From: Microvirga ossetica
Lineage (GTDB): Bacteria; Pseudomonadota; Alphaproteobacteria; Rhizobiales; Beijerinckiaceae
Length of the DNA: 64,000 nt
Direction of reading: 5' to 3'
Assembly (NCBI RefSeq): GCF_002741015.1
Contig: NZ_CP016617.1
Span: 1,054,001 to 1,118,000 of the forward strand
In this document: in pieces, positions 38,352 through 60,930 of the stretch
How the letters are laid out: the number at the start of each line of letters is the position of its first letter
Position numbering within the stretch: position 1 is the stretch's first letter
Program-made: the position numbers and the translations under genes
The notes under the pieces: generated by a model
Told to the model about the DNA's origin: nothing
Seen by the model: only the letters and a program-made list of their open reading frames with translations
Database searches by the model: none

Positions 38352-40166
38352 TTAGGCCGTGTAGGTCACGCCTCCGGCGCCACCGATCACCATGTTCACC
38401 GAGTTGCCAGCAGGAGCCGTTCCGATCTTCCCCGGACCTGCCTCGGCATAGCCGCGGATAACGACGTGATTGCCGGATCCACAGTAGGTGAAGTCGACCG
38501 CCCCAAGGTCGCAGCCGTTGACCTGGGAATTGATGATCGCGAAGTTGACGTTGTTAGCGCCATTCTCGTTGTCGCCGAGCTGGATGCCCTTCGATGCCGG
38601 CCGTCTCGCTCCCGAGGCCGGCCCGCTGACCTTGCCGTTGAAGACGATGCCGCCCTTAATGATGACGTTCTTTCCATTCCAGGGCGCATAGAAATAGCAG
38701 CTCGCGTCGACAGAGGTATCAGGCCCCTTGAAGAGCGCGTTGCAGTACCAAGCGCCCTCGAAGTGCGAGGATGAGATATGAAGCCCACCAGACTTATCGT
38801 GAAGCGCGATATTATGCCGGAAGGCCAGAGACCCATTCGTTGCCATATGGGTTTGGACAATCCCATACATGCGATTGTTCGCGTGACAGTTGGATAGCCG
38901 GGACGGCGCGAACTTCTCGAACAGGAAGGCCTCGTAGGTGTGATCGGCAGCCTGGCTGGCATCGAGCACCACGACGTTGTTCAACTTGCTGTCGTTCGGG
39001 CCGGCATTCCAGAAGCCGTACTTGCCTACGGTGTCGATGTAGACATTGTCGTAGAGATTCTCGATACCACCCCGCGGCCCGCCTTGGGTCCATTCTGTCC
39101 GAAGCCCATGGTCCCGGAACATGGTGATGAAGACGTCACGGAAGATATTGCTGTAGCCGAACACTTCGACGCCGGATCCGCCAGCGTTGTTGAACCAGTT
39201 GCCGTCCAGCGTCAGGCCGATAAGGCCGGCGCTGTAGATACCGCCGGCTGTCGGAGCAGCAAAAAGCGCATCTGCGTTCTCGCCCTTGATCAGCGACGTA
39301 TTGGTCCCGTTGCGTAAGCGCAGGACTGAGACGTCCTCTCCGGAGCCACGCAGAATGACCTTGGTGCGGAGGGTCAGAGTTCCACAGCAGTAGACGCCGG
39401 GCGGGATGTCAACGTAGCCGCCACCCTTTGCCGAAACGAAATCGATCGCGGCCTTTACGGCCGCAGTGTCGTTAGCCGCGGTTGCCGTCGAAGCATCAAT
39501 AGGAGTGACGGTGCCGTTTCCGATCGCGCCGAACATGCGAATGTTGATGTTGGTTCCGATCAGCTCCCACCAGGCGCCGTTTGCGCTCTGGAAGTGCCAG
39601 GCCTTGGCCAGCGACGGCGCCGCTCCGAGCTTTTTGTAACTGGCCTCGCCGCCGTCGCCAGCGCTGTGATACCCACCCAGCCGGATAGCTTCTGCTGCCT
39701 CGGGAATTGCGGAGGCTGCAGCGACGGCTCGGGTTGGATATTGAGCGGACACGCTGAGCGCTACGTCCGGTATCACGATATCAGCCAGACTGAAAAGGAA
39801 GCGCCACAGCTCCGTCGCGATGGCCGGGGTGCTGCCAACCTCGGAGGTATGGGCCTGACGGGCAGAGTACAGCGCGTTGTCGAAGTAGACCCCGTCACCC
39901 GCCGAATAGGCCACGCCCGAACCCCATGTTCCACGCATAGTGAAGCCGATACTCAGGCCGGCCGCTAAAGCCTCGGGCCCCACGATGCCGTTCTTGAGCT
40001 TTCCGTCGGATCGGCGCACGTCATTGAGGCCGTCGATGACCCCGCCGATCGACTGCTCGATGTTCTCGAGCTCGTTGTCGACCTTCGGTGCCGGGAGCGG
40101 CTGGCGCGGATTCGTGGCCTGGTAGCCGGAGAAGCTGTAGCTGCGCTGATATTTTGTCGGGGTCAT
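38352..40166 (-). CDS. Phage tail-spike / pectate-lyase-like beta-helix protein
   Basis: 604 residues from ATG at 40166. The N-terminal 75 residues (SYSFSGYQATNPRQPLPAPK, DNELENIEQSIGGVIDGLND) look like the virion-attachment part of rhizobial phage tail fibres. Residues about 215-600 are a right-handed beta-helix, starting with INIRMFGAIGNGT, NDTAAVKAAIDFVSAKGGGY and VDIPPGVY, the pectate-lyase-3 pattern of tailspikes and depolymerases. The start overlaps the upstream stop (ATGA). Likely binds or cuts surface polysaccharide. Confidence 0.8.
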   Translation of the reverse strand: MTPTKYQRSYSFSGYQATNPRQPLPAPKVDNELENIEQSIGGVIDGLNDVRRSDGKLKNGIVGPEALAAGLSIGFTMRGTWGSGVAYSAGDGVYFDNALYSARQAHTSEVGSTPAIATELWRFLFSLADIVIPDVALSVSAQYPTRAVAAASAIPEAAEAIRLGGYHSAGDGGEASYKKLGAAPSLAKAWHFQSANGAWWELIGTNINIRMFGAIGNGTVTPIDASTATAANDTAAVKAAIDFVSAKGGGYVDIPPGVYCCGTLTLRTKVILRGSGEDVSVLRLRNGTNTSLIKGENADALFAAPTAGGIYSAGLIGLTLDGNWFNNAGGSGVEVFGYSNIFRDVFITMFRDHGLRTEWTQGGPRGGIENLYDNVYIDTVGKYGFWNAGPNDSKLNNVVVLDASQAADHTYEAFLFEKFAPSRLSNCHANNRMYGIVQTHMATNGSLAFRHNIALHDKSGGLHISSSHFEGAWYCNALFKGPDTSVDASCYFYAPWNGKNVIIKGGIVFNGKVSGPASGARRPASKGIQLGDNENGANNVNFAIINSQVNGCDLGAVDFTYCGSGNHVVIRGYAEAGPGKIGTAPAGNSVNMVIGGAGGVTYTA

Positions 40167-40885
40167 TTGTTGTTCCAATCAGCGTCGTCGGCCTCACTGC
40201 CGAGATCGAAATCGTAAAGTTGAGCCTTGGATTGCATGGGGTCCTCTGCTGCCGATGCGCCGGCGCGGCCTTCGGGCTCTGAATTTTGGAAGTCGCATTG
40301 CTCGCGGGCGTGACTTTCGGGACCCATTTCAGATGGTGCCATTGCGTTGCCTTCCTTCAGTAAAGGGTTGCTGTCGGTCTGCAGCAGCGAGTGGATCACC
40401 TCGGCGCGGCGCCGATGGGCGCGCTCTTCAATCTCTTCGGCCAGGCTGATGTTGTGGAGCTGGTTTCGGAAGATCCGGGCGTGGGCACAGGTGTCGGCGT
40501 ATGTGTCCCGCGGCCAGACGGCCCGCTGCTCGTCGTCCGCAGCCCAGTAGGTGACTATGCCTGCAAGGGCTTCCATGCCCGTGAAGATCATGGACCGTCG
40601 GCAGAGTGGCGGAAGCGTTCTATCTGCTGTGAGGTAAGCGGAGGTGATAGCGGCCAGGAGTCGGTCCCGTTGGCGCTGGTAGGGCCTTAGGCCGTTGCGC
40701 CGCCTGTATCGCGACATGATCGAAGCCATCGCGCTCGAGAGGGCCCACGCAATGTGTTCACCTCGGGCCGCCTGGTTCAGGAGGCTGATGTCGAACTCAA
40801 CGATGTGGTCGAACCCGATCTCCTCGTGCGTCGGAGGATCGGGCGAGAAATCTTCGTCGGCGTAGTTGGGAAATAGTTCGGCCAT
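40163..40885 (-). CDS. Hypothetical protein coupled to the tail-spike gene
   Basis: 240 residues from ATG at 40885. N-terminal acidic part (NYADEDFSPDPPTHEEIGFD), then a helical core with YRRRNGLRPYQRQRDRLLAA and a charged C-terminal tail. Not recognised. The overlap with the tail-spike start suggests a phage-derived partner. Confidence 0.5.
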   Translation of the reverse strand: MAELFPNYADEDFSPDPPTHEEIGFDHIVEFDISLLNQAARGEHIAWALSSAMASIMSRYRRRNGLRPYQRQRDRLLAAITSAYLTADRTLPPLCRRSMIFTGMEALAGIVTYWAADDEQRAVWPRDTYADTCAHARIFRNQLHNISLAEEIEERAHRRRAEVIHSLLQTDSNPLLKEGNAMAPSEMGPESHAREQCDFQNSEPEGRAGASAAEDPMQSKAQLYDFDLGSEADDADWNNK

Positions 40886-42123: not shown

Positions 42124-45100
42124 TTAGTGAGTTGCGACCGTCCTCTCGGTTCGCACAATGAGCACACGCCTCATACGGCCGTTCACTTCGAATTCGGTCT
42201 CGTCCTCCTCAGTCAGGCCGACCAACTCTTTCCCTAGCGGAGAGTTTACAGCCAGAAAGCCATTCGTGAGATCGTCACGGGTGGGGCTCAACATGAATGT
42301 CGCTGTCTTGTTGTCATCAAGGTATCTGATCACAACTCGATCACCAACGCGGATCCCATTGGAGAAGCCAGTGAACCCTTCAGCGCTTTTGCCGTCTATC
42401 TCATTGTACTTCTGAGTGGGAGGCTGGGTTCTCTGCTCGGGCTCGCTTGACTTGAACGTATCACCTTTCGCATGTGCCTCCGGCGCCGTGATGTGAGCTG
42501 TAAAAACACCACCATTGGCAGCACCGTCGCCTGGCTCAATTCCATTGCGTTCCAAGGTTAAGAACAGATCGTCCATGCATCCATTGGGATCGAGTGTGAA
42601 ACTCGACGCCCAGCAGCGCCAGAAGCGCCAGCCAACCCGCTCCAGAATGCGCTGACGGCGCATATCGTCCGCCCAGCGCTCCGGACCATGATACTGATCC
42701 CCATCACACTCGACGGCCAAGCGCCGTCCGTTTGCTCCTTCGACAACAAGGTCGATGCGGTATCCCATAGCTCCGACTTGGGGAGTGACCCGGTATCCCC
42801 GCTCCAGAAGGCGGCGCAGCACCTCGCGCTCGAAATCCGACTCGCACAATGCCTCAAGGTCACCCGTCGGCGTAGCCGCGCCGGACATCGGGTCACGGAA
42901 ATGGCGGATCACACGCGCCTTCAGGTCATCGGGCTTTAGCTCCTGCTCACGAACCGAACGAACGAGCACAAGACGGTCGCGGGCACGGGAGAGCGCCACG
43001 TTGAAGCGCTGCTCAAACTGGGCGGCCGTTTGCGCCTGCTTGCTGTTGGGATCAGCAATCATGGACAGGAAGACGACGTCGCGCTCATTGCCCTGGAAGG
43101 TGGCGCTGTCACCGCAGGCTATGCGGTGACGCATCATCACATCTTCCCCAAGCTCATCGAGAAGCATGCGGTTAATGAGGGCAGCCTGCTTTGCTCCGAT
43201 CAGCGATACCACGCCGATCGTGCGCCAGCGGTCCTGTGCCTCGATGCGGGCAAGGCTGGGATCATCGACGATCTTGCGGATCTCGCTGACGATGATCTCC
43301 GCCTCCCGCGGGTTCTGCTTATCCCCTTGGCGGCGCCCGTCCGGCACATAGATGTCGACGAGCGGCGGGTTGAGCCGCTCATGCGCCGTTGGCACGCGCA
43401 GCGGCACTAAGGGTTCAGGGTAGAACTGCATAGAGAACCGGATGATCGGCTCGACGCACCGGAAGTGCTCCTTGAGCATGACCAGCTTGTCCGGGAACAT
43501 GACCTTGGCGAGGTCGTAGAGCGAGGCTCCTGGAAGGAGAAGCGTCTTGAACGGCTGCCCTTTGAGGAAGCCGTGCTCCAGGCGGTCGATCTTCGCATTC
43601 TCGATGAAGGCAGCCGTCGGGCTCACCTGCTTGTCGTCACCGACCACGAGGATCTTCTTGCCACGAAGGAGCGCTGGGACCTCACGGATGTCCGATTGTG
43701 AGGCTTCGTCCATAATGACGAGGTCGAACGAGCCGACCTCACCCGGTAACTGCTCGGCGACGCGCCATGTCGGCATGATCCAGCACGGAATGGCGTCGTA
43801 ACACTGGGCCATGGCGCTGCGGGCGTCGCGGCGGTGCCGGACAGCCCCTTTGCCGGTGCCCTTGCCAGTCTTGCGCAGGGCTGTGGCGAACATCATCAGG
43901 GCAGACCGCACAGGCCCAGACATGGACCGACCAAGCTCATAGAAGGTTCGCTCGCGCACCACCCGCTCGAAGGTCTTTCTGATTTCAGCATCAAGGCGGA
44001 CCCGTTCCTCGGCCAGGCTACGCAGCCGGTACCGGTCGTCGATCCGCGCCAGATAAGCCGAGGCTGCGGCCCAATCCCATGCCTCACGCCAGTCGACGGG
44101 GATCAAGGTATCCGTTTCGCCTTCGACTGGTTCTGTGGCCAGACGCCGGCTCCAAAGAGGAGCCCCTGCTTCGCGGATCCGGCCTGTGACGGTACGGACA
44201 AGCGCCAGATGGTTCTTGTGCTGATTCAGGTCATCGATCTGGCGCCTTAAAACACCCCAAAGGCGGGCGACGTTCTGCGTCTCGATATCGGATCGGCCAA
44301 TCGCCTCGCCCAGCAGGTCACGAGCCAGTTTCCCGATCTTGCCTGATGCGTCCGAGAAGAGCCCCTCAAGACGGGACACTTCAACGCGCGCGGCAGCGAG
44401 CCGTGCGGAGGCCGCCGCATTCCGAAGCGCTGCCTCGGCATGTTCCATCCGAGCAGGATCGTGCCAGAGCTCCCGAGGCGAGCTCGCCCCAGGTACGACT
44501 TGGCTGAATACCTCCTCGAGCGCACGCATAGCGCCGGCCCCCTCCACGAGGATGGCATTCAGGAGGCCGACGAGTTGCTCGATCTCCCGCGCCGATCCTG
44601 CAGACGGAGCGCCAATCTCCTCGGCCAGCGCCCGCCACCGTACGCTCAATGAAGTGACTTGCTCCCGCCAGATGAGGTATTGGCGAATGTGATCCCAGTC
44701 CTCCCGAGCCGCTGGTGTGCGCCCTTGCACCTTGATGGCCTGCACAACCGGCCGGAGTGCCTTCTCGCGAAACGCAAAGAAGCCAAACACCTCCTCGCCG
44801 TTGGCGAGGCGGCCGATCAACGTGGTCGCCTCAACGGCCGCGAGCTCGAAGGTATCGGGCAGTTCCACCGGCTGGGCGAGGTAGCGCTTCCGCTCCTCGA
44901 CAATCGGCTTCGCGTCTTCCGCAAATTGCAGGAGCAGTTCCAGCGCGCCGGCTCCTCGCTCACCAGCAATCGCATGCTGAGCCACCGGCTCAAGCCAGGG
45001 ATTGGCCTTGGCGAGCGTCTGAACACGCTGGAGGGTCTCAAGGGCTTCGGCTCCTCGCAGCGCCTGCCCGGTGGCACCAGCCGAACCAATGCGGATCGTC

Positions 45101-47079
45101 AGCGAGCCATCCCGTGCGGCCGCCTCCGCGAAGCGCTCGGACCGGACGAGGTCCTCATGCAGCCGGGCAATGACCTCTCCGTCGGGCAGATCCTCAACCG
45201 ACGGGAGCACCGCATCCAGATGCTCGAGCCGGGAGCCGAGGGCCACACGTGCCGCTCGGAGGGCGGAGATCTCATCGTCCGACAGACCAGCATCCTGCGC
45301 GGACTGCTCCGGGCGATCCTCGAACCACCTGTATTGCTCTGCCGAGGAGACAATCCGTTTTGCAAGCTCCGCCGGCCGCTCGTCAGCCGCGGTTGGGGCG
45401 AGCTGCAACAGCGCGAACCGCTCGATTTCCTTGTCGACCTCCTCAAGTCGGGTCCGGAGGCCAACAACAGAGGCTTCCAGGTCCCGGATCAGACGCGACT
45501 GCTCGCTGGGCCTGATGCTCTCGACCACCGACTGCAGGAGGCGCACGGCTGTCTCAAGCTGTTTGAACCCTTCACGCTCTGTCGCCGTGATGCTGATTGC
45601 AAGATCCCGAACACCCTCAGGTAGCTGGCTCCGCAGGACCGCAAGGGCGGGCTCGCCATGCGACACGACCAGGACCCGCCGGCCTGTGGCCATGTAGTGG
45701 CAGATGATGTTGGAGATCGTGTGCGTCTTGCCCGTGCCGGGTGGTCCCTGGACAACGATGCCATCGGTGCCTTCCAGACGCCGGACGATCTCGATCTGGT
45801 CATCGTTGAAGGGCTTGGGAAAGAAGAGGTCCGTGGCTTCAGTCTGAGGTGCGGCCTCGGCTGTGCCGCCAACGGTCTCGCCGACGCGATTTCCCAATGG
45901 AGCCCAGATATCATTCGGCTGTGCTGTGGAAGGCCCCATCACGAGGGTCTGAGCCGGACCTGGCAAAGAGCCTTCCTCGGCTGCCTTCTCCACCGACTTC
46001 TTCAGGTTCTCGAGGTCGGCCAGGATGAAGCTGTCAGACCGTCTGCGGGCAAACAGAACCCAACGATCTGAGACGGTGAGGTGTTCGTTGGCCGCAGGCA
46101 TCGGCTGGTCGGGTGCCAGTGCCTGGCGATCGGGCAAATACACGCCTTCGGCATCCAGACGGGCCTGACAGGCGCGAAGGACTGGCTCGAACCCGTCGCG
46201 TCGGTAAGGTGAGACACCTTCATCCGCATCCACCGCTGCGATCGCCCGGCGCGACGCGTCTAAGGCCAGGGAAGCCCCTTCGACACCGAGTTCCTCAAAC
46301 GGACGCATGTTAACGCTGGCTGTTGCCGCGCGGGGGCGGACCTTGATCTCACCGCCGGCAAGATCGTCAATCTCGATTTCCACGAGACGCTCGACCAGAG
46401 GCAGGTCGACCTCATTGCCATCCCTGAGCCAGCGGGAGAGCCCCATGCCCCAAACGAGCTCGAAGGATTTGTCCCCGCCTCCGAGCTCGGCGAGCTGGGT
46501 GACCTCGAAGAGCTTTTGATAAAGCGCCAGCGATCGGCGAACCGGACGTTCCGCCACCGACCAGGGCAGCCATTGTTCGGTGATCCACGTCTCGGCGGCG
46601 GTCCTGACGTCAGGACGATCCTCCAGGCGCAGGCGCACATCCCAGCGGGGGATGGTCTCGTCCTTCTTGATGGCTTCCGCCACATCCTCCGGGCGCACGG
46701 CTCCGGAGGCCAGAAGGTCGTCCCGTTCCGTCTCCGTTACCGTCCGAAGCATGTAATCCCGGAGTTTCGGCTCCCGCTCTGGATCGGGGGAGATCTCCAG
46801 CCAGTCTGCGGCTTGTTCTGGCGGTGCGGGAGGATCACTGCGCCGGAGCCGCTCCACGGCAAGCCACACCGGGCCATCCTCGTCCACCAGATCGTGACGA
46901 ACCCCAGGCATGGCATGCAGTTCGTGCTGGTGCAGCACAAAGGTCTGTCCGGTTGGAAGCCGATGCTCGGACAGCCGCAGGGCTGGCCGCTCATCCAGCC
47001 GGACCACTTGCTCGACGTATCCCAGAAGATTGTGAAGGCGCTCAGCGGCAGGTGCGACGGTATCAGGTGCAGACATCAT
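42124..47079 (-). CDS. Giant SF1 helicase with Vsr/MTES-type nuclease and GreA/GreB C-terminal-like domain
   Basis: 1651 residues. Residues about 1-420 are an unrecognised N-terminal region. Helicase motif I (Walker A) [20 protein letters not shown] is near 445; a long helical insertion follows (about 500-1060). Motif II DLVIMDEASQSD is near 1123, motif III GDDKQVSP near 1145, and the C-terminal half has TFQGNERDVVFLSM and FNVALSRARDRLVLV (AAA_11/AAA_12, UPF1-like). At about 1410-1495, FEREVLRRLLERGYRV, YRIDLVVE and LAVECDGDQYHG fit a PD-(D/E)xK very-short-patch/MTES nuclease. Residues 1575-1651 (VGDRVVIRYL, NSPLGKELVGLTEEDETEFE) resemble the GreA/GreB C-terminal domain. Helicase-Vsr fusions are known anti-phage proteins. 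It stands alone; an IS630 element lies 104 bases upstream. Confidence 0.85.
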   Translation of the reverse strand: MMSAPDTVAPAAERLHNLLGYVEQVVRLDERPALRLSEHRLPTGQTFVLHQHELHAMPGVRHDLVDEDGPVWLAVERLRRSDPPAPPEQAADWLEISPDPEREPKLRDYMLRTVTETERDDLLASGAVRPEDVAEAIKKDETIPRWDVRLRLEDRPDVRTAAETWITEQWLPWSVAERPVRRSLALYQKLFEVTQLAELGGGDKSFELVWGMGLSRWLRDGNEVDLPLVERLVEIEIDDLAGGEIKVRPRAATASVNMRPFEELGVEGASLALDASRRAIAAVDADEGVSPYRRDGFEPVLRACQARLDAEGVYLPDRQALAPDQPMPAANEHLTVSDRWVLFARRRSDSFILADLENLKKSVEKAAEEGSLPGPAQTLVMGPSTAQPNDIWAPLGNRVGETVGGTAEAAPQTEATDLFFPKPFNDDQIEIVRRLEGTDGIVVQGPPGTGKTHTISNIICHYMATGRRVLVVSHGEPALAVLRSQLPEGVRDLAISITATEREGFKQLETAVRLLQSVVESIRPSEQSRLIRDLEASVVGLRTRLEEVDKEIERFALLQLAPTAADERPAELAKRIVSSAEQYRWFEDRPEQSAQDAGLSDDEISALRAARVALGSRLEHLDAVLPSVEDLPDGEVIARLHEDLVRSERFAEAAARDGSLTIRIGSAGATGQALRGAEALETLQRVQTLAKANPWLEPVAQHAIAGERGAGALELLLQFAEDAKPIVEERKRYLAQPVELPDTFELAAVEATTLIGRLANGEEVFGFFAFREKALRPVVQAIKVQGRTPAAREDWDHIRQYLIWREQVTSLSVRWRALAEEIGAPSAGSAREIEQLVGLLNAILVEGAGAMRALEEVFSQVVPGASSPRELWHDPARMEHAEAALRNAAASARLAAARVEVSRLEGLFSDASGKIGKLARDLLGEAIGRSDIETQNVARLWGVLRRQIDDLNQHKNHLALVRTVTGRIREAGAPLWSRRLATEPVEGETDTLIPVDWREAWDWAAASAYLARIDDRYRLRSLAEERVRLDAEIRKTFERVVRERTFYELGRSMSGPVRSALMMFATALRKTGKGTGKGAVRHRRDARSAMAQCYDAIPCWIMPTWRVAEQLPGEVGSFDLVIMDEASQSDIREVPALLRGKKILVVGDDKQVSPTAAFIENAKIDRLEHGFLKGQPFKTLLLPGASLYDLAKVMFPDKLVMLKEHFRCVEPIIRFSMQFYPEPLVPLRVPTAHERLNPPLVDIYVPDGRRQGDKQNPREAEIIVSEIRKIVDDPSLARIEAQDRWRTIGVVSLIGAKQAALINRMLLDELGEDVMMRHRIACGDSATFQGNERDVVFLSMIADPNSKQAQTAAQFEQRFNVALSRARDRLVLVRSVREQELKPDDLKARVIRHFRDPMSGAATPTGDLEALCESDFEREVLRRLLERGYRVTPQVGAMGYRIDLVVEGANGRRLAVECDGDQYHGPERWADDMRRQRILERVGWRFWRCWASSFTLDPNGCMDDLFLTLERNGIEPGDGAANGGVFTAHITAPEAHAKGDTFKSSEPEQRTQPPTQKYNEIDGKSAEGFTGFSNGIRVGDRVVIRYLDDNKTATFMLSPTRDDLTNGFLAVNSPLGKELVGLTEEDETEFEVNGRMRRVLIVRTERTVATH

Positions 47080-48234: not shown

Positions 48235-49006
48235 GCGTCACAATGACCACGGCGAGACAAGCAGACGGACAGAGCTCCTCGCCTGCAATCGCAAGTGATG
48301 GCTGTCAGCCTGACGCTTGGTAGCCCCAATCGGCCTTCATCGACACTGATAGTATTCAAGATGATGAATGATGATTTCGAGTCTGTGTGGCACTGCCGCA
48401 GTGACAATGATCTTAGCGCATCCAGCAGCCCCCCAGAGTCAAAAGCGATTCTCGCAGAGTCAAGGCAGAACTTTTATCTTTCTTTCGACTCGCCGCTTTC
48501 GACCTCAAGAATCCTGCAGTTTCAGTTTTCCAATGCGATCTGCGTTAACAATCGCTCAATCATTTCAGATCGACTCCACACGCAACATCGAATCAGCCAT
48601 CTCTTGAACGGTTGCGAGAAGAGCGGGTGCGCAGGCTCCAGTTCTTTGCGCCACAAGAGCAGCGCTCCCACAGGCCTATCGTCCCGGTAGGTCGGTGGGA
48701 GCCTGACGTGTTGGCGCTCACGAACGTCGATGGCGGGACCAACGTCCTCACTGAGGCTCCGTCCGCCTAGGCAGTCTGCTCCGAAACTCCCGCAGCCCTC
48801 TTCGAACAGGAGAAGCAACCCGTGAACTAAGGCCAGGCAAAGCAAAAGGCCCACGAAGCTGGAAACTTCGAGGGCCTTTGGAGACCCACCGAGGGGTGGG
48901 CGTATGGAAACTTAAGCACCTTCCTTATGCCATCCCGACAAGCTGACTGTCAAGAACATCGGTTTCGGTGAACGCTCCCGCTTTGCCCTCACATTGGAGG
49001 GACGCG
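48235..49006. other. Intergenic region upstream of repC
   Basis: About 770 bases with no recognised gene and no repA/repB remnant that I can see. It holds a strong hairpin at 48845-48879. Confidence 0.4.
48845..48879. terminator. Long hairpin upstream of repC
   Basis: AAAGGCCC pairs with GGGCCTTT, and inside it CGAAG pairs with CTTCG around CTGGAAA. It has A-run and T-run sides, so it could terminate in either direction. In repABC plasmids a small antisense RNA with a strong terminator lies just before repC; this is a candidate for that terminator. Confidence 0.6.
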
Positions 49007-50152
49007 ATGCAACTCGCATCGTCAGGAGGCCGGCGGCTGAGACATGCCGCTCTGGCCGCGAGAAGACTCGTGCTCGAAACCGAGCACACTGTGACGCGCA
49101 AGGAACTCTCGGCCGCAGCTCGGGACGCTGAAAAGGCGCTCCGGCTCAGCGCCACCCAGCGCATCGTGTTGGGTCAGCTGGTGGCATGCTGGGGTGAGCA
49201 AACGGCAGACCGGCTCCTAGTGTGGCCATCCAACGCCCGTCTAGTGGCGACCACCGGGCTGTCCGAGCGCGCGATCCGCAACGCCATCCGCGCCATGATC
49301 GACCTGCAGCTCGTGATCCCGAAGGACTCGCCGAACGGCAAGCGATACGCCATCCGCAATGAAGCCGGTGAAGTCATTGACGCGTTCGGCTTCGACCTGA
49401 CGCCGGTCTATGCCAGACGCAAAGAATGGGCGGAGAGCCTTGCAGAGCAGAAGCGGCTCAAGGACACTCTCAAACGGCGGTTCGACGAGATCACAATTTG
49501 CCGCCGAGCAACGGAAGAGGCCTTGAGCGCCCTTGCCCAACACTACCCCGACATTGACCGCTCGGATCTGGAGTACCGTTTGGAAACCGTGAAAGCGAGA
49601 TCCCCCAAACGATCCGGATCGTCTCTTCCTGACGGCCTGATCGACGCTTGGAGGGAGGCAAGACACCTTGCTGAGGAAGCCTTCTACAAGGCAGGCTGTG
49701 ACGGCACAAAATGCCGGCACATTGAAGCAGAGAACGGGTTTCCTAGTGAAACTTGTGACAATGCTCTTCGCGCGCCTACCCATGACGTAAGCGCTCCATC
49801 GTGTTCTCCGCAGATCGCACCGGGATTGGTGGCCGAGGCTTGTCCCGTGATCTCCTACTATGGGCATCCGATCAGAGATGCTGCCGATGTTGTTTCGGCT
49901 GGCCGCTACTTGCGAGCTTCGTTAGGAGCCCATCCCAGCACATGGGATGAGGCTGTCCGGACCATTGGTGATTTTTCAGCGGCAGCCGCTGTCATCTACG
50001 TCCTACAACTCTATGACGATGATGTTACGAGCGGACGAAACCGCATCCGAAATGCCGGTGGATACTACCGGTCGGTTGTGCGGATGATCGGGAGAGGAGA
50101 AATCGATCTTCAGGCGGACCTCTTGGCGATGCGGAGACGAAAGCTCGTGTAA
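49007..50152 (+). CDS. repC: Plasmid replication initiator RepC-like protein
   Basis: 381 residues from ATG at 49007, preceded by GGAGGGAC (a GTG at 48968 is less likely). The RepC core is clear: WPSNARLVATTGLSERAIRN, AIRAMIDLQLVIPKDSPNGK and RYAIRNEAGEVIDAFGFDLT, then PVYARRKEW. The C-terminal domain (WDEAVRTIGDFSAAAAVIYV) is present. RepC starts replication of repABC plasmids of Rhizobiales and carries the origin inside its own gene. No repA or repB is next to it. Confidence 0.88.
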   Translation: MQLASSGGRRLRHAALAARRLVLETEHTVTRKELSAAARDAEKALRLSATQRIVLGQLVACWGEQTADRLLVWPSNARLVATTGLSERAIRNAIRAMIDLQLVIPKDSPNGKRYAIRNEAGEVIDAFGFDLTPVYARRKEWAESLAEQKRLKDTLKRRFDEITICRRATEEALSALAQHYPDIDRSDLEYRLETVKARSPKRSGSSLPDGLIDAWREARHLAEEAFYKAGCDGTKCRHIEAENGFPSETCDNALRAPTHDVSAPSCSPQIAPGLVAEACPVISYYGHPIRDAADVVSAGRYLRASLGAHPSTWDEAVRTIGDFSAAAAVIYVLQLYDDDVTSGRNRIRNAGGYYRSVVRMIGRGEIDLQADLLAMRRRKLV

Positions 50153-59598: not shown

Positions 59599-60930
59599 TT
59601 GGGCAACCTATCAACTCCAAAGAGTGTTCAGAAACTGCAGACGGCGTTGCACGCGAAAGCGAAGGCAGAAGCCGGTTATCGCTTCTACGCCCTGTACGAC
59701 AAGATCAGCCGCGAGGACATTCTGGCGCATGCCTATGCCCAGTGCCGCTCGAACAAGGGCGCACCGGGTGGCGACGGTCAGGACTTTGCGGACATCGAGG
59801 CGTATGGGGTCGAGCGGTGGCTGGGTGAACTGGCGCTTGCGCTCAGGCAGGAGACTTACCGACCGGACCCGATCAGACGCGTGTTCATCCCGAAGGCCAA
59901 CGGCAAACTCAGGCCGCTGGGCATCTCGACCGTGCGGGATCGGGTCTGCATGACAGCAGCGATGCTGGTGCTGGACCCGATCTTCGAGGCCGACCTTCCA
60001 CCAGAACTCTACGCCTACCGGACTGGGCGCAATGCCCAGCAGGCGGTGATCGAGGTGGAAGAGCTGCTGTTCCGAGGCCATCCGGACGTCGTGGACGCCG
60101 ACCTCGCGGACTACTTCGGGAGCATTCCCCATGCCGAGCTGATGACGTCAGTGGCGCGCCGCATCGTTGATCGGCGCGTGCTGCACCTGATCAGAGGGTG
60201 GCTGGACTGCCCCGTGGAAGAAACCGACACACGAGGACAGACGACACGGACAACGGAGGCGCGCGATCAACGGCGCGGCATCCCGCAGGGTTCACCCCTC
60301 TCACCCTTGCTGGCCAATCTGTACATGCGCCGGTTTGTGCTGGGATGGAAGAAGCTCGGGCTGGAGCACAGCCTCGGCAGTCGCATCGTGACCTATGCGG
60401 ATGACCTCGTGATCCTGTGCAGGAAGGGCAAAGCCGAAGAGGCCTTGCACCGGCTGCGCGAGATCATGGGCAAGCTGAAGCTGACGGTGAACGAGGAGAA
60501 GACACGCATCTGCAAGGTTCCGGAAGGTGAGTTCGACTTCCTGGGATACACGTTCGGACGGATGTATTCGGCGAGAACCGGCCAGGCCCGCCTGGCGCAA
60601 CGGCCCTCGAAGAAGAGCATCCGGCGCGCGGTCGAGAAGATCCATGCGCTGACCGCCCGAGCGGGAACATGGCAAGAGACCACAGTGCTGGTGGGCAAGT
60701 TGAACCGCACGCTACGCGGATGGGCGAACTACTTCTCAGTAGGCACCGTCAACCCGGCGTACCGGGCGCTCGACACCTATACAGCGGTGCGGTTGCGCCG
60801 GTGGTTGCGCTCCAAGCATAAGGTCAGGCGACGCAAGGGCGGGGCTTATCCCCTCTCGCATCTTTACGGGCACTTCGGGCTCGTCCGCCTGAGCCGGCTT
60901 GGGCACGACGTGCCGTGGGTGAAGGCGTGA
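59599..60930 (+). CDS. ltrA: Group II intron reverse transcriptase/maturase
   Basis: 443 residues from TTG. RT motifs: GAPGGDGQ (RT1), [20 protein letters not shown] (RT2), [19 protein letters not shown] (RT3, catalytic Asp), [18 protein letters not shown] (RT4), [12 protein letters not shown] (YADD, RT5) near 266. The maturase X domain follows ([20 protein letters not shown]). No HNH endonuclease domain is seen. Complete, probably active in splicing and retrohoming. Confidence 0.93.

Follow-up and report, generated by a model that had tools for sequence, protein, structure and literature searches.

A UPF1-like helicase-nuclease gene with a GreA/GreB C-terminal-like tail in Microvirga ossetica, a candidate accessory defence gene

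The window analysed here is a stretch of 64,000 nucleotides of Microvirga ossetica DNA (contig NZ_CP016617.1, positions 1,054,001 to 1,118,000), and our subject is one of its genes, in which a superfamily 1 (SF1) UPF1-like helicase is joined to an MTES_1575/Vsr-like nuclease and to a C-terminal domain like that of GreA and GreB. The gene lies on the minus strand (42124-47079) as a single frame of 1651 codons running from ATG to stop, and over the same interval the plus-strand frame is interrupted by stops (Table 1). A sequence-only reading of this stretch had proposed a 1651-residue protein at this place, with UPF1-like helicase motifs near residues 445 and 1123, a Vsr/MTES nuclease at 1410-1495 and a GreA/GreB-like domain at 1575-1651, and all of these assignments were borne out.

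Architecture and conservation of the protein

In the motor, Pfam placed AAA_11 at residues 424-580 and AAA_12 at 1194-1373, helicase motifs I, II and VI are present (Walker A GPPGTGKT at 445, DEASQ at 1124, NVALSRAR at 1360), and the nearest solved sequences by phmmer are NAM7/UPF1, SEN1 and SMUBP-2. The nuclease domain scored 113 bits against a Pfam cut-off of 38.2, with the motifs RIDLVVEG at 1441 and ECDGDQYH at 1457; counting fragments, 113 of the 121 listed homologues keep the nuclease motif (conserved D and E-x-D-G). The N-terminal region displays 33 invariant columns in the alignment of residues 1-425 (22 rows). The model of these residues, in which a UPF1 stalk or OB-fold domain 1B was sought, gave no PDB match at E<=0.001, and VIA assigned no clear fold to it.

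According to profile matches and to its predicted structure, the tail has the GreA/GreB C-terminal (Gre-C, FKBP-like) fold. Pfam matched GreA_GreB C-term (PF01272) at residues 1576-1642 (E 1.3e-7; 31.9 bits, cut-off 26.9), a PDB profile search with the tail matched GreA (E 1.4e-7), and the AlphaFold2 model reached a predicted local distance difference test (pLDDT) score of about 95 over the domain. In structure, too, the last 80 residues resemble GreA/GreB C-terminal domains: the best 14 PDB matches in Foldseek were all GreA, GreB, Gfh1 or Rnk, and in the VIA structure comparison GreA and Gfh1 led the FKBPs by about 3 to 5 Z units, HelD ranking after the Gre proteins in Foldseek and equalling the FKBPs in VIA. 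NCBIfam GreA models align to the protein by their C-terminal part only, and the N-terminal coiled-coil of GreA/GreB with its acidic tip is absent from the 23 Pfam matches at E<=1. Elsewhere the same genome encodes PF01272 in three more proteins, whose frames measure 162, 181 and 275 amino acids (aa).

Conservation of the tail was assessed in 121 listed proteins, which include the best 120 of 1925 homologues at E<=1e-10, and in a second set of 120 listed out of 1434; the nuclease anchor is missing from 8 of the first 121 proteins, 2 of the next 120 and 3 of 48 loci. The nuclease end could be placed in 113 of the 121 listed homologues, 112 of which have at least 60 aa behind it, and the tail profile matches all 112 readable tails at E<1e-3. 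The three-part order anticipated by the sequence-only reading thus recurs in the closest homologues, beyond chance. Among 131 aligned tail rows, G1579 is kept in 130 and D1580 and D1588 in 129 each; among 128 rows, E1627 is kept in 128, R1637 in 120 and P1614 in 110, the SPLG motif being mostly kept. P1614 corresponds to GreB P123, which we take to be a contact with RNA polymerase (RNAP).

Comparison of the window gene with five Microvirga relatives gave ratios of nonsynonymous to synonymous substitution (Ka/Ks) of 0.05-0.09 for the Gre part, 0.06-0.09 for the helicase and 0.40-0.69 for the linker (residues 1515-1572), whose modelled part, from residue 1553 onward, has low pLDDT; the N-terminal row of locus L014 (0.18), a gene at a contig end, was left unused. 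The Gre tail is therefore under purifying selection within the genus and as constrained as the helicase. Synonymous divergence among congeners reaches 0.33-1.77 over residues 1410-1646 (nuclease, linker and Gre domain, as three pieces) versus 0.31-0.37 in the helicase; being higher at that end, it suggests that recombination within Microvirga has swapped the C-terminal part of the protein. A chance or misread Gre domain is rejected on the basis of Pfam, the PDB profile, Foldseek, VIA, the tails of homologues and Ka/Ks; an accidental fusion to a host GreA in one genome was likewise rejected, given the three additional PF01272 proteins of the genome and a fusion common to many species.

Table 1. 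Features of the helicase-nuclease-Gre gene and of its surroundings (window coordinates).
Feature	Coordinates	Strand	Evidence
Helicase - MTES nuclease - GreA/B-C gene	42124..47079	-	Open frame; full-length orthologues at 91-93% identity in genus, one partial and one split copy
N-terminal domain, residues 1-380, family-conserved	45940..47079	-	22-row alignment; AlphaFold2 mean pLDDT 81
SF1 UPF1-like helicase, residues 411-1400, long insertion separating RecA-like halves	42880..45849	-	AAA_11, AAA_12, motifs
MTES_1575/Vsr-like PD-(D/E)xK nuclease domain, residues 1416-1506	42562..42834	-	Pfam E 7.3e-33, motifs
Fast-evolving linker, residues 1507-1574	42358..42561	-	Ka/Ks, low pLDDT
GreA/GreB C-terminal-like domain, residues 1575-1646, SPLG at 1613-1616	42142..42357	-	Pfam, PDB profile, AlphaFold2, Foldseek, VIA, Ka/Ks
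IS630-type insertion, ~105 bp upstream of start codon	47185..48232	-	DDE_3, HTH_Tnp_IS630
repC plasmid replication gene	48968..50152	+	RP-C, RP-C_C

C-terminal ends, occurrence and neighbouring genes

A quick tree of the core, built from 73 chosen rows of the 277 having a core and accompanied by a program warning of long branches, contains a single 31-row clade in which every member carries the Gre tail (Microvirga, Methylobacterium, Bradyrhizobium, Beijerinckiaceae, Acetobacteraceae and others). Outside this clade, Gre tails occur in L018 (Nitrosomonadales) and in L019 and L033 (both Verrucomicrobiota by label), the match of L019 being marginally below the Pfam cut-off (26.6 vs 26.9 bits); on the tree the Gre label changes four times, at least three of them on well-supported branches. 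The sister of L018, L021, ends in another module, and in L021 (7458-12422) and L029 (28-3474) this module, of pattern LVDNREKGGALW...WGFKF..GKGWW.K, replaces the Gre domain. L034, grouped with L019 and L033, has a different end, apparently a winged helix by inspection of its sequence, with no Pfam match.

Some of the other tails, found in the same place in more distant relatives, belong to the transcription apparatus. L041 (9776-15370), from a Kaiserbacteria metagenome-assembled genome, ends in sigma-70 region 4 plus RNA_pol_A_CTD, as do its near-copies P0122 and P0123; P0124 and P0125 have an end like the RNAP alpha C-terminal domain (alpha-CTD), recovered by phmmer with the L041 end (E 8e-9 and 9e-10), with no Pfam call in P0124. 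In L046 (4321-13101; 2926 aa; UBP9 label), which keeps the Walker A and nuclease motifs, the tail consists of TerB, three alpha-CTD stretches, sigma-70 region 4 and HARE-HTH. Further, L064 has a DUF3320 tail, and P0088 (2034 aa) is arranged as MTES - GreC - TPR - GreC. These comparisons show the Gre tail exchanged against other C-terminal ends. Two relatives carry additional modules: in P0076 an end resembling that of L021 and L029 comes after the Gre domain, and in P0175 an FtsK gamma domain sits within the helicase insertion (residues 719-773).

Orthologues were found in 7 of 48 genomes of the genus, the window's included; four of the others are full-length, at 91-93% identity, one is partial (162-1651), and one (G030:C1:309829-314774; L052, L080) is split into two frames of 1320 and 379 aa (94% and 82%). 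The break falls near residue 1312, and a dispensable gene would be expected to show such a split, as would a sequencing error. Five further genomes, of the 12 reported in the genus, gave only partial matches resembling Hhe, a helicase-nuclease family discussed below. Matches were obtained in 2 of 397 sampled genomes of the order and 4 of 397 of the phylum, own genome included in each, counts that may be lower bounds as they come from first-look candidates scored at E<=1e-100, and in 3 of 146 relatives of genome G749. A fixed housekeeping gene in this order, the outcome that would have spoken against the sequence-only reading, is rejected by this patchy occurrence. Plasmids contributed 453 matching records, 23 of which cover 80% of the query.

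Four of these plasmid relatives were fetched, all without a Gre tail, and two of them have BREX or restriction genes as immediate neighbours: in L066 the gene comes directly after pglZ/brxL (BREX), and in L064 it is preceded by a methyltransferase and a restriction endonuclease and followed by AbiE genes. In L065, AbiE genes lie about 6 kb away, and in L063 a DUF4194/AAA set, which we take to be of Wadjet type, about 4 kb away. As for Gre-tailed loci, L017 has a DrmB homologue (E 1.7e-73), and L015 is flanked by a PDC-S46 homologue (E 1.6e-108) and a caspase-like gene (E 2.4e-10). A PADLOC scan of frames of at least 180 aa within about 8 kb (134 proteins, 16 Gre-tailed loci) matched 21 and 38 families; 97 control proteins, drawn from seven stretches (L070-L076) in the same genome, matched 11, with mad3 in 6 and mad8 in 5. 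Scanned singly, 5 of 20 neighbours had a PADLOC match, among them one TniQ and one weak DUF626_VIII. One control protein matches the Mokosh model MkoA (E 7.8e-194), and the genome probably has a Mokosh-like gene elsewhere.

The gene adjoins repC in three genomes (the window, L012/L079 and L052/L080); in L010/L081 it adjoins the HNH gene alone, about 5 kb separate it from a repC-like gene in L014, and the surroundings of L007 and L008 differ from the window locus. Between the gene and repC in the window lies the IS630-type element, with a TA target duplication; the site is empty in L012 and L052, whose sequence runs directly from the position of 47184 to that of 48233, and the insertion may have changed expression of the helicase gene. 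Of the neighbours scanned in the window, four were assigned, namely the IS630 transposase, repC, an HNH gene and a tail-spike-like gene, and two frames matched nothing. The placement between a phage remnant and repC, previously proposed, holds for repC, a genuine RP-C gene, and less well for the remnant: of three frames checked near the gene, only 38352-40178 resembles phage tail or tail-spike families, and weakly (E 2.6e-7 and 7.2e-4). Farther along, 59599-60930 encodes a group II intron reverse transcriptase/maturase.

Proposed function and rival explanations

The helicase and nuclease motifs of the protein are intact, and its occurrence is patchy and partly plasmid-linked. The account we tentatively favour, with slightly less than even confidence, is that of an accessory and probably antiviral system made of this one gene, a helicase-nuclease of the PDC-S37/Hhe superfamily that would dock on RNAP by its tail; we infer both RNAP binding and defence from sequences and models. 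A defence role, proposed by the sequence-only reading, is the most likely one, given the nearest profiles, the patchiness and the BREX or restriction genes beside two of four plasmid relatives. Docking is preferred over a chance use of the FKBP fold because sigma region 4, alpha-CTD and HARE-HTH, the last of which is presumably found in the RNAP delta subunit, are parts of the transcription apparatus. The Gre-C domain, on its flexible linker, would bind RNAP at the secondary channel by way of the beta' rim helices, in the manner of the globular domain of GreA/GreB, and it would not cleave transcripts, since the coiled-coil is lacking. Such docking would place the UPF1-like motor at nucleic acid laid bare by an elongation complex that is stalled or abnormal, be it nascent RNA, an R-loop or the DNA of the bubble; translocation driven by ATP would expose the substrate, and the MTES domain would cut it, most likely transcribed DNA, stopping the invader or the infected cell. 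Invader and host might be discriminated by the N-terminal domain or through a phage-induced change of RNAP, and we infer, as did the sequence-only reading, that cutting could be steered to transcribing phage DNA.

For target choice by the large helicase-Vsr/MTES proteins (Hhe, ProA, PDC-S37), a conserved RNAP-docking-type domain in one large branch, together with transcription modules at the same place in two further lineages, yields a concrete hypothesis, namely recruitment via RNA polymerase. Possible, if decidedly more doubtful, is a transcription-coupled restriction practised by the family at large: its members, with interchangeable transcription-linked tails (Gre in Alphaproteobacteria, one Nitrosomonadales and two Verrucomicrobiota, others in a Kaiserbacteria lineage and a UBP9 member), would travel with elongating RNAP or inspect it, and would destroy DNA or RNA of invading templates whose transcription is abnormal. 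If recruitment via RNAP is true, Gre-type secondary-channel factors would be linked to immunity, which fits a preprint reporting that GreA is required for immunity by DRT3, whose trigger, ST61, is GreA-like by prediction (PMC13174585).

Several points weigh against an RNAP-docking defence protein. Tethering to host RNAP alone does not explain how host DNA would be spared, and the distinction of self from non-self is a weak step. Among the matches listed, 113 of 118 L041-like proteins have a tail of less than 60 aa, and because most of these members are without one, the core needs no tail. The sigma region 4, alpha-CTD and HARE-HTH tails stem from two lineages only, and such domains can be plain DNA binders. 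Within the Gre tails themselves, the position matching GreB D121, which we assume to be an RNAP contact and the partner of P123, is variable. Viral contigs searched with patterns from the window protein gave no match, and 50,697 phage records gave three partial matches only. Around the Gre-tailed loci the PADLOC signal is suggestive only, as it does not clearly beat the control and its family counts include redundant models. Both GreA domains seem required for specific RNAP binding, in the part of PMC7527559 consulted, so Gre-C alone might bind weakly. Finally, a large DUF4011 gene, possibly Hhe-like, is described as core in every P. aeruginosa isolate in the accessible portion of PMC10250203, and not every relative need thus be accessory.

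We regard it as rather unlikely that the Gre-C fold serves without RNAP binding, as a structural, dimerising or regulatory module or as a receptor of phage proteins in a defence helicase-nuclease. The lead of GreA and Gfh1 over FKBPs in Z units and the mostly kept SPLG speak against such a use, the top-matched proteins belong, as far as known, to RNAP-binding families, and two other lineages bear sigma and alpha-CTD modules at the same place.

Transcription-coupled repair or RNAP recycling, in which Gre-C would find stalled RNAP, the motor would clear the complex and the Vsr-like domain would nick damaged or mismatched DNA, in the manner of HelD or Mfd, appears improbable. Vsr is a repair nuclease, which counts in its favour, as does the presence of HelD behind the Gre proteins in the Foldseek matches of the tail. 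HelD, moreover, recycles RNAP and combines an SF1-type motor with a Gre-like region (passages of PMC7749165), and the P. aeruginosa gene is core (PMC10250203, in part). Such a role sits poorly with the very patchy occurrence in genus, order and phylum, with the adjacency to plasmid repC in three genomes and the split copy of one congener, and with Gre-less relatives adjoining BREX or restriction genes and best profiles that are antiphage. Least probable of all is a guard of RNAP, a sensor rather than a targeting device, whose tail would silence the enzyme on normal RNAP and release it in response to a phage protein that sits in the secondary channel or alters it. Phages often hijack RNAP, and the higher synonymous divergence of the C-terminal end would suit such a sensor, whereas the strong purifying selection on the Gre domain is not the diversification expected of a recognition surface. 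The GreA dependence of DRT3 and its predicted GreA-like trigger also count for it (PMC13174585, in part).

Comparison with known systems

The best PADLOC match of the protein is PDC-S37 (E 2.3e-66; residues 428-1512), a candidate only, for which our literature search found no paper naming it; the helicase and MTES core are alike, and the alignment, spanning model positions 298-1341 of 1550, ends before the tail. The profiles of Hhe (NCBIfam NF042953) and ProA (NF058533) span helicase and nuclease as well. The Hhe-type kinship supposed earlier stands in so far as the core is nearest to PDC-S37 and to these profiles, and fails as membership: Hhe is rejected at 184 bits vs a cut-off of 2000, and ProA reaches 245 bits vs 1500. 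Hhe is named for DUF4011, and Pfam finds no DUF4011 in the window protein. The same genome has a 1999-aa Hhe-like helicase without a Gre tail (G000:C1:5553419-5556718; L077), with similar partial matches in five congeners, and no Gre domain was seen in the fetched parts of six Hhe-like proteins of the genus.

CnuH of CoCoNuT type III-B is a UPF1-like SF1 helicase fused to a Vsr-like nuclease and encoded with a CnuB/McrB-type GTPase (sections of PMC11090510); membership is rejected here, as no such GTPase is among the scanned neighbours of the window gene. The GreA/B-C domain is in common with the TPR - GreA/B-C - PIN proteins, which are mostly stand-alone predicted counter-invader proteins proposed to engage the RNAP beta' coiled-coil, some carrying a restriction endonuclease effector (Kaur et al. 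2021, PMC8195603, in part); section 7 of that paper mentions no helicase, and the Pfam table of the window protein contains neither TPR nor PIN. The relative P0088, with GreC - TPR - GreC behind its nuclease, is reminiscent of these conflict proteins. HelD, an RNAP-recycling NTPase, has an SF1-type, UvrD-like motor and, at its N-terminal end, a Gre-like region that carries a long coiled-coil and sits at the secondary channel of RNAP (parts of PMC7749165 and PMC7749167); the window protein differs in its UPF1-like motor, in a Gre-C domain alone that follows a linker at the C-terminus, and in its nuclease. The helicase-nuclease-Gre combination was not found described in the literature searched, which covers few subscription journals or preprints, and the Pfam architecture of such proteins is already visible in public databases. 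Its elements are in print separately, as GreA/B-C conflict proteins (PMC8195603), UPF1-Vsr fusions (PMC11090510) and the Gre-bearing SF1 motor HelD (PMC7749165).
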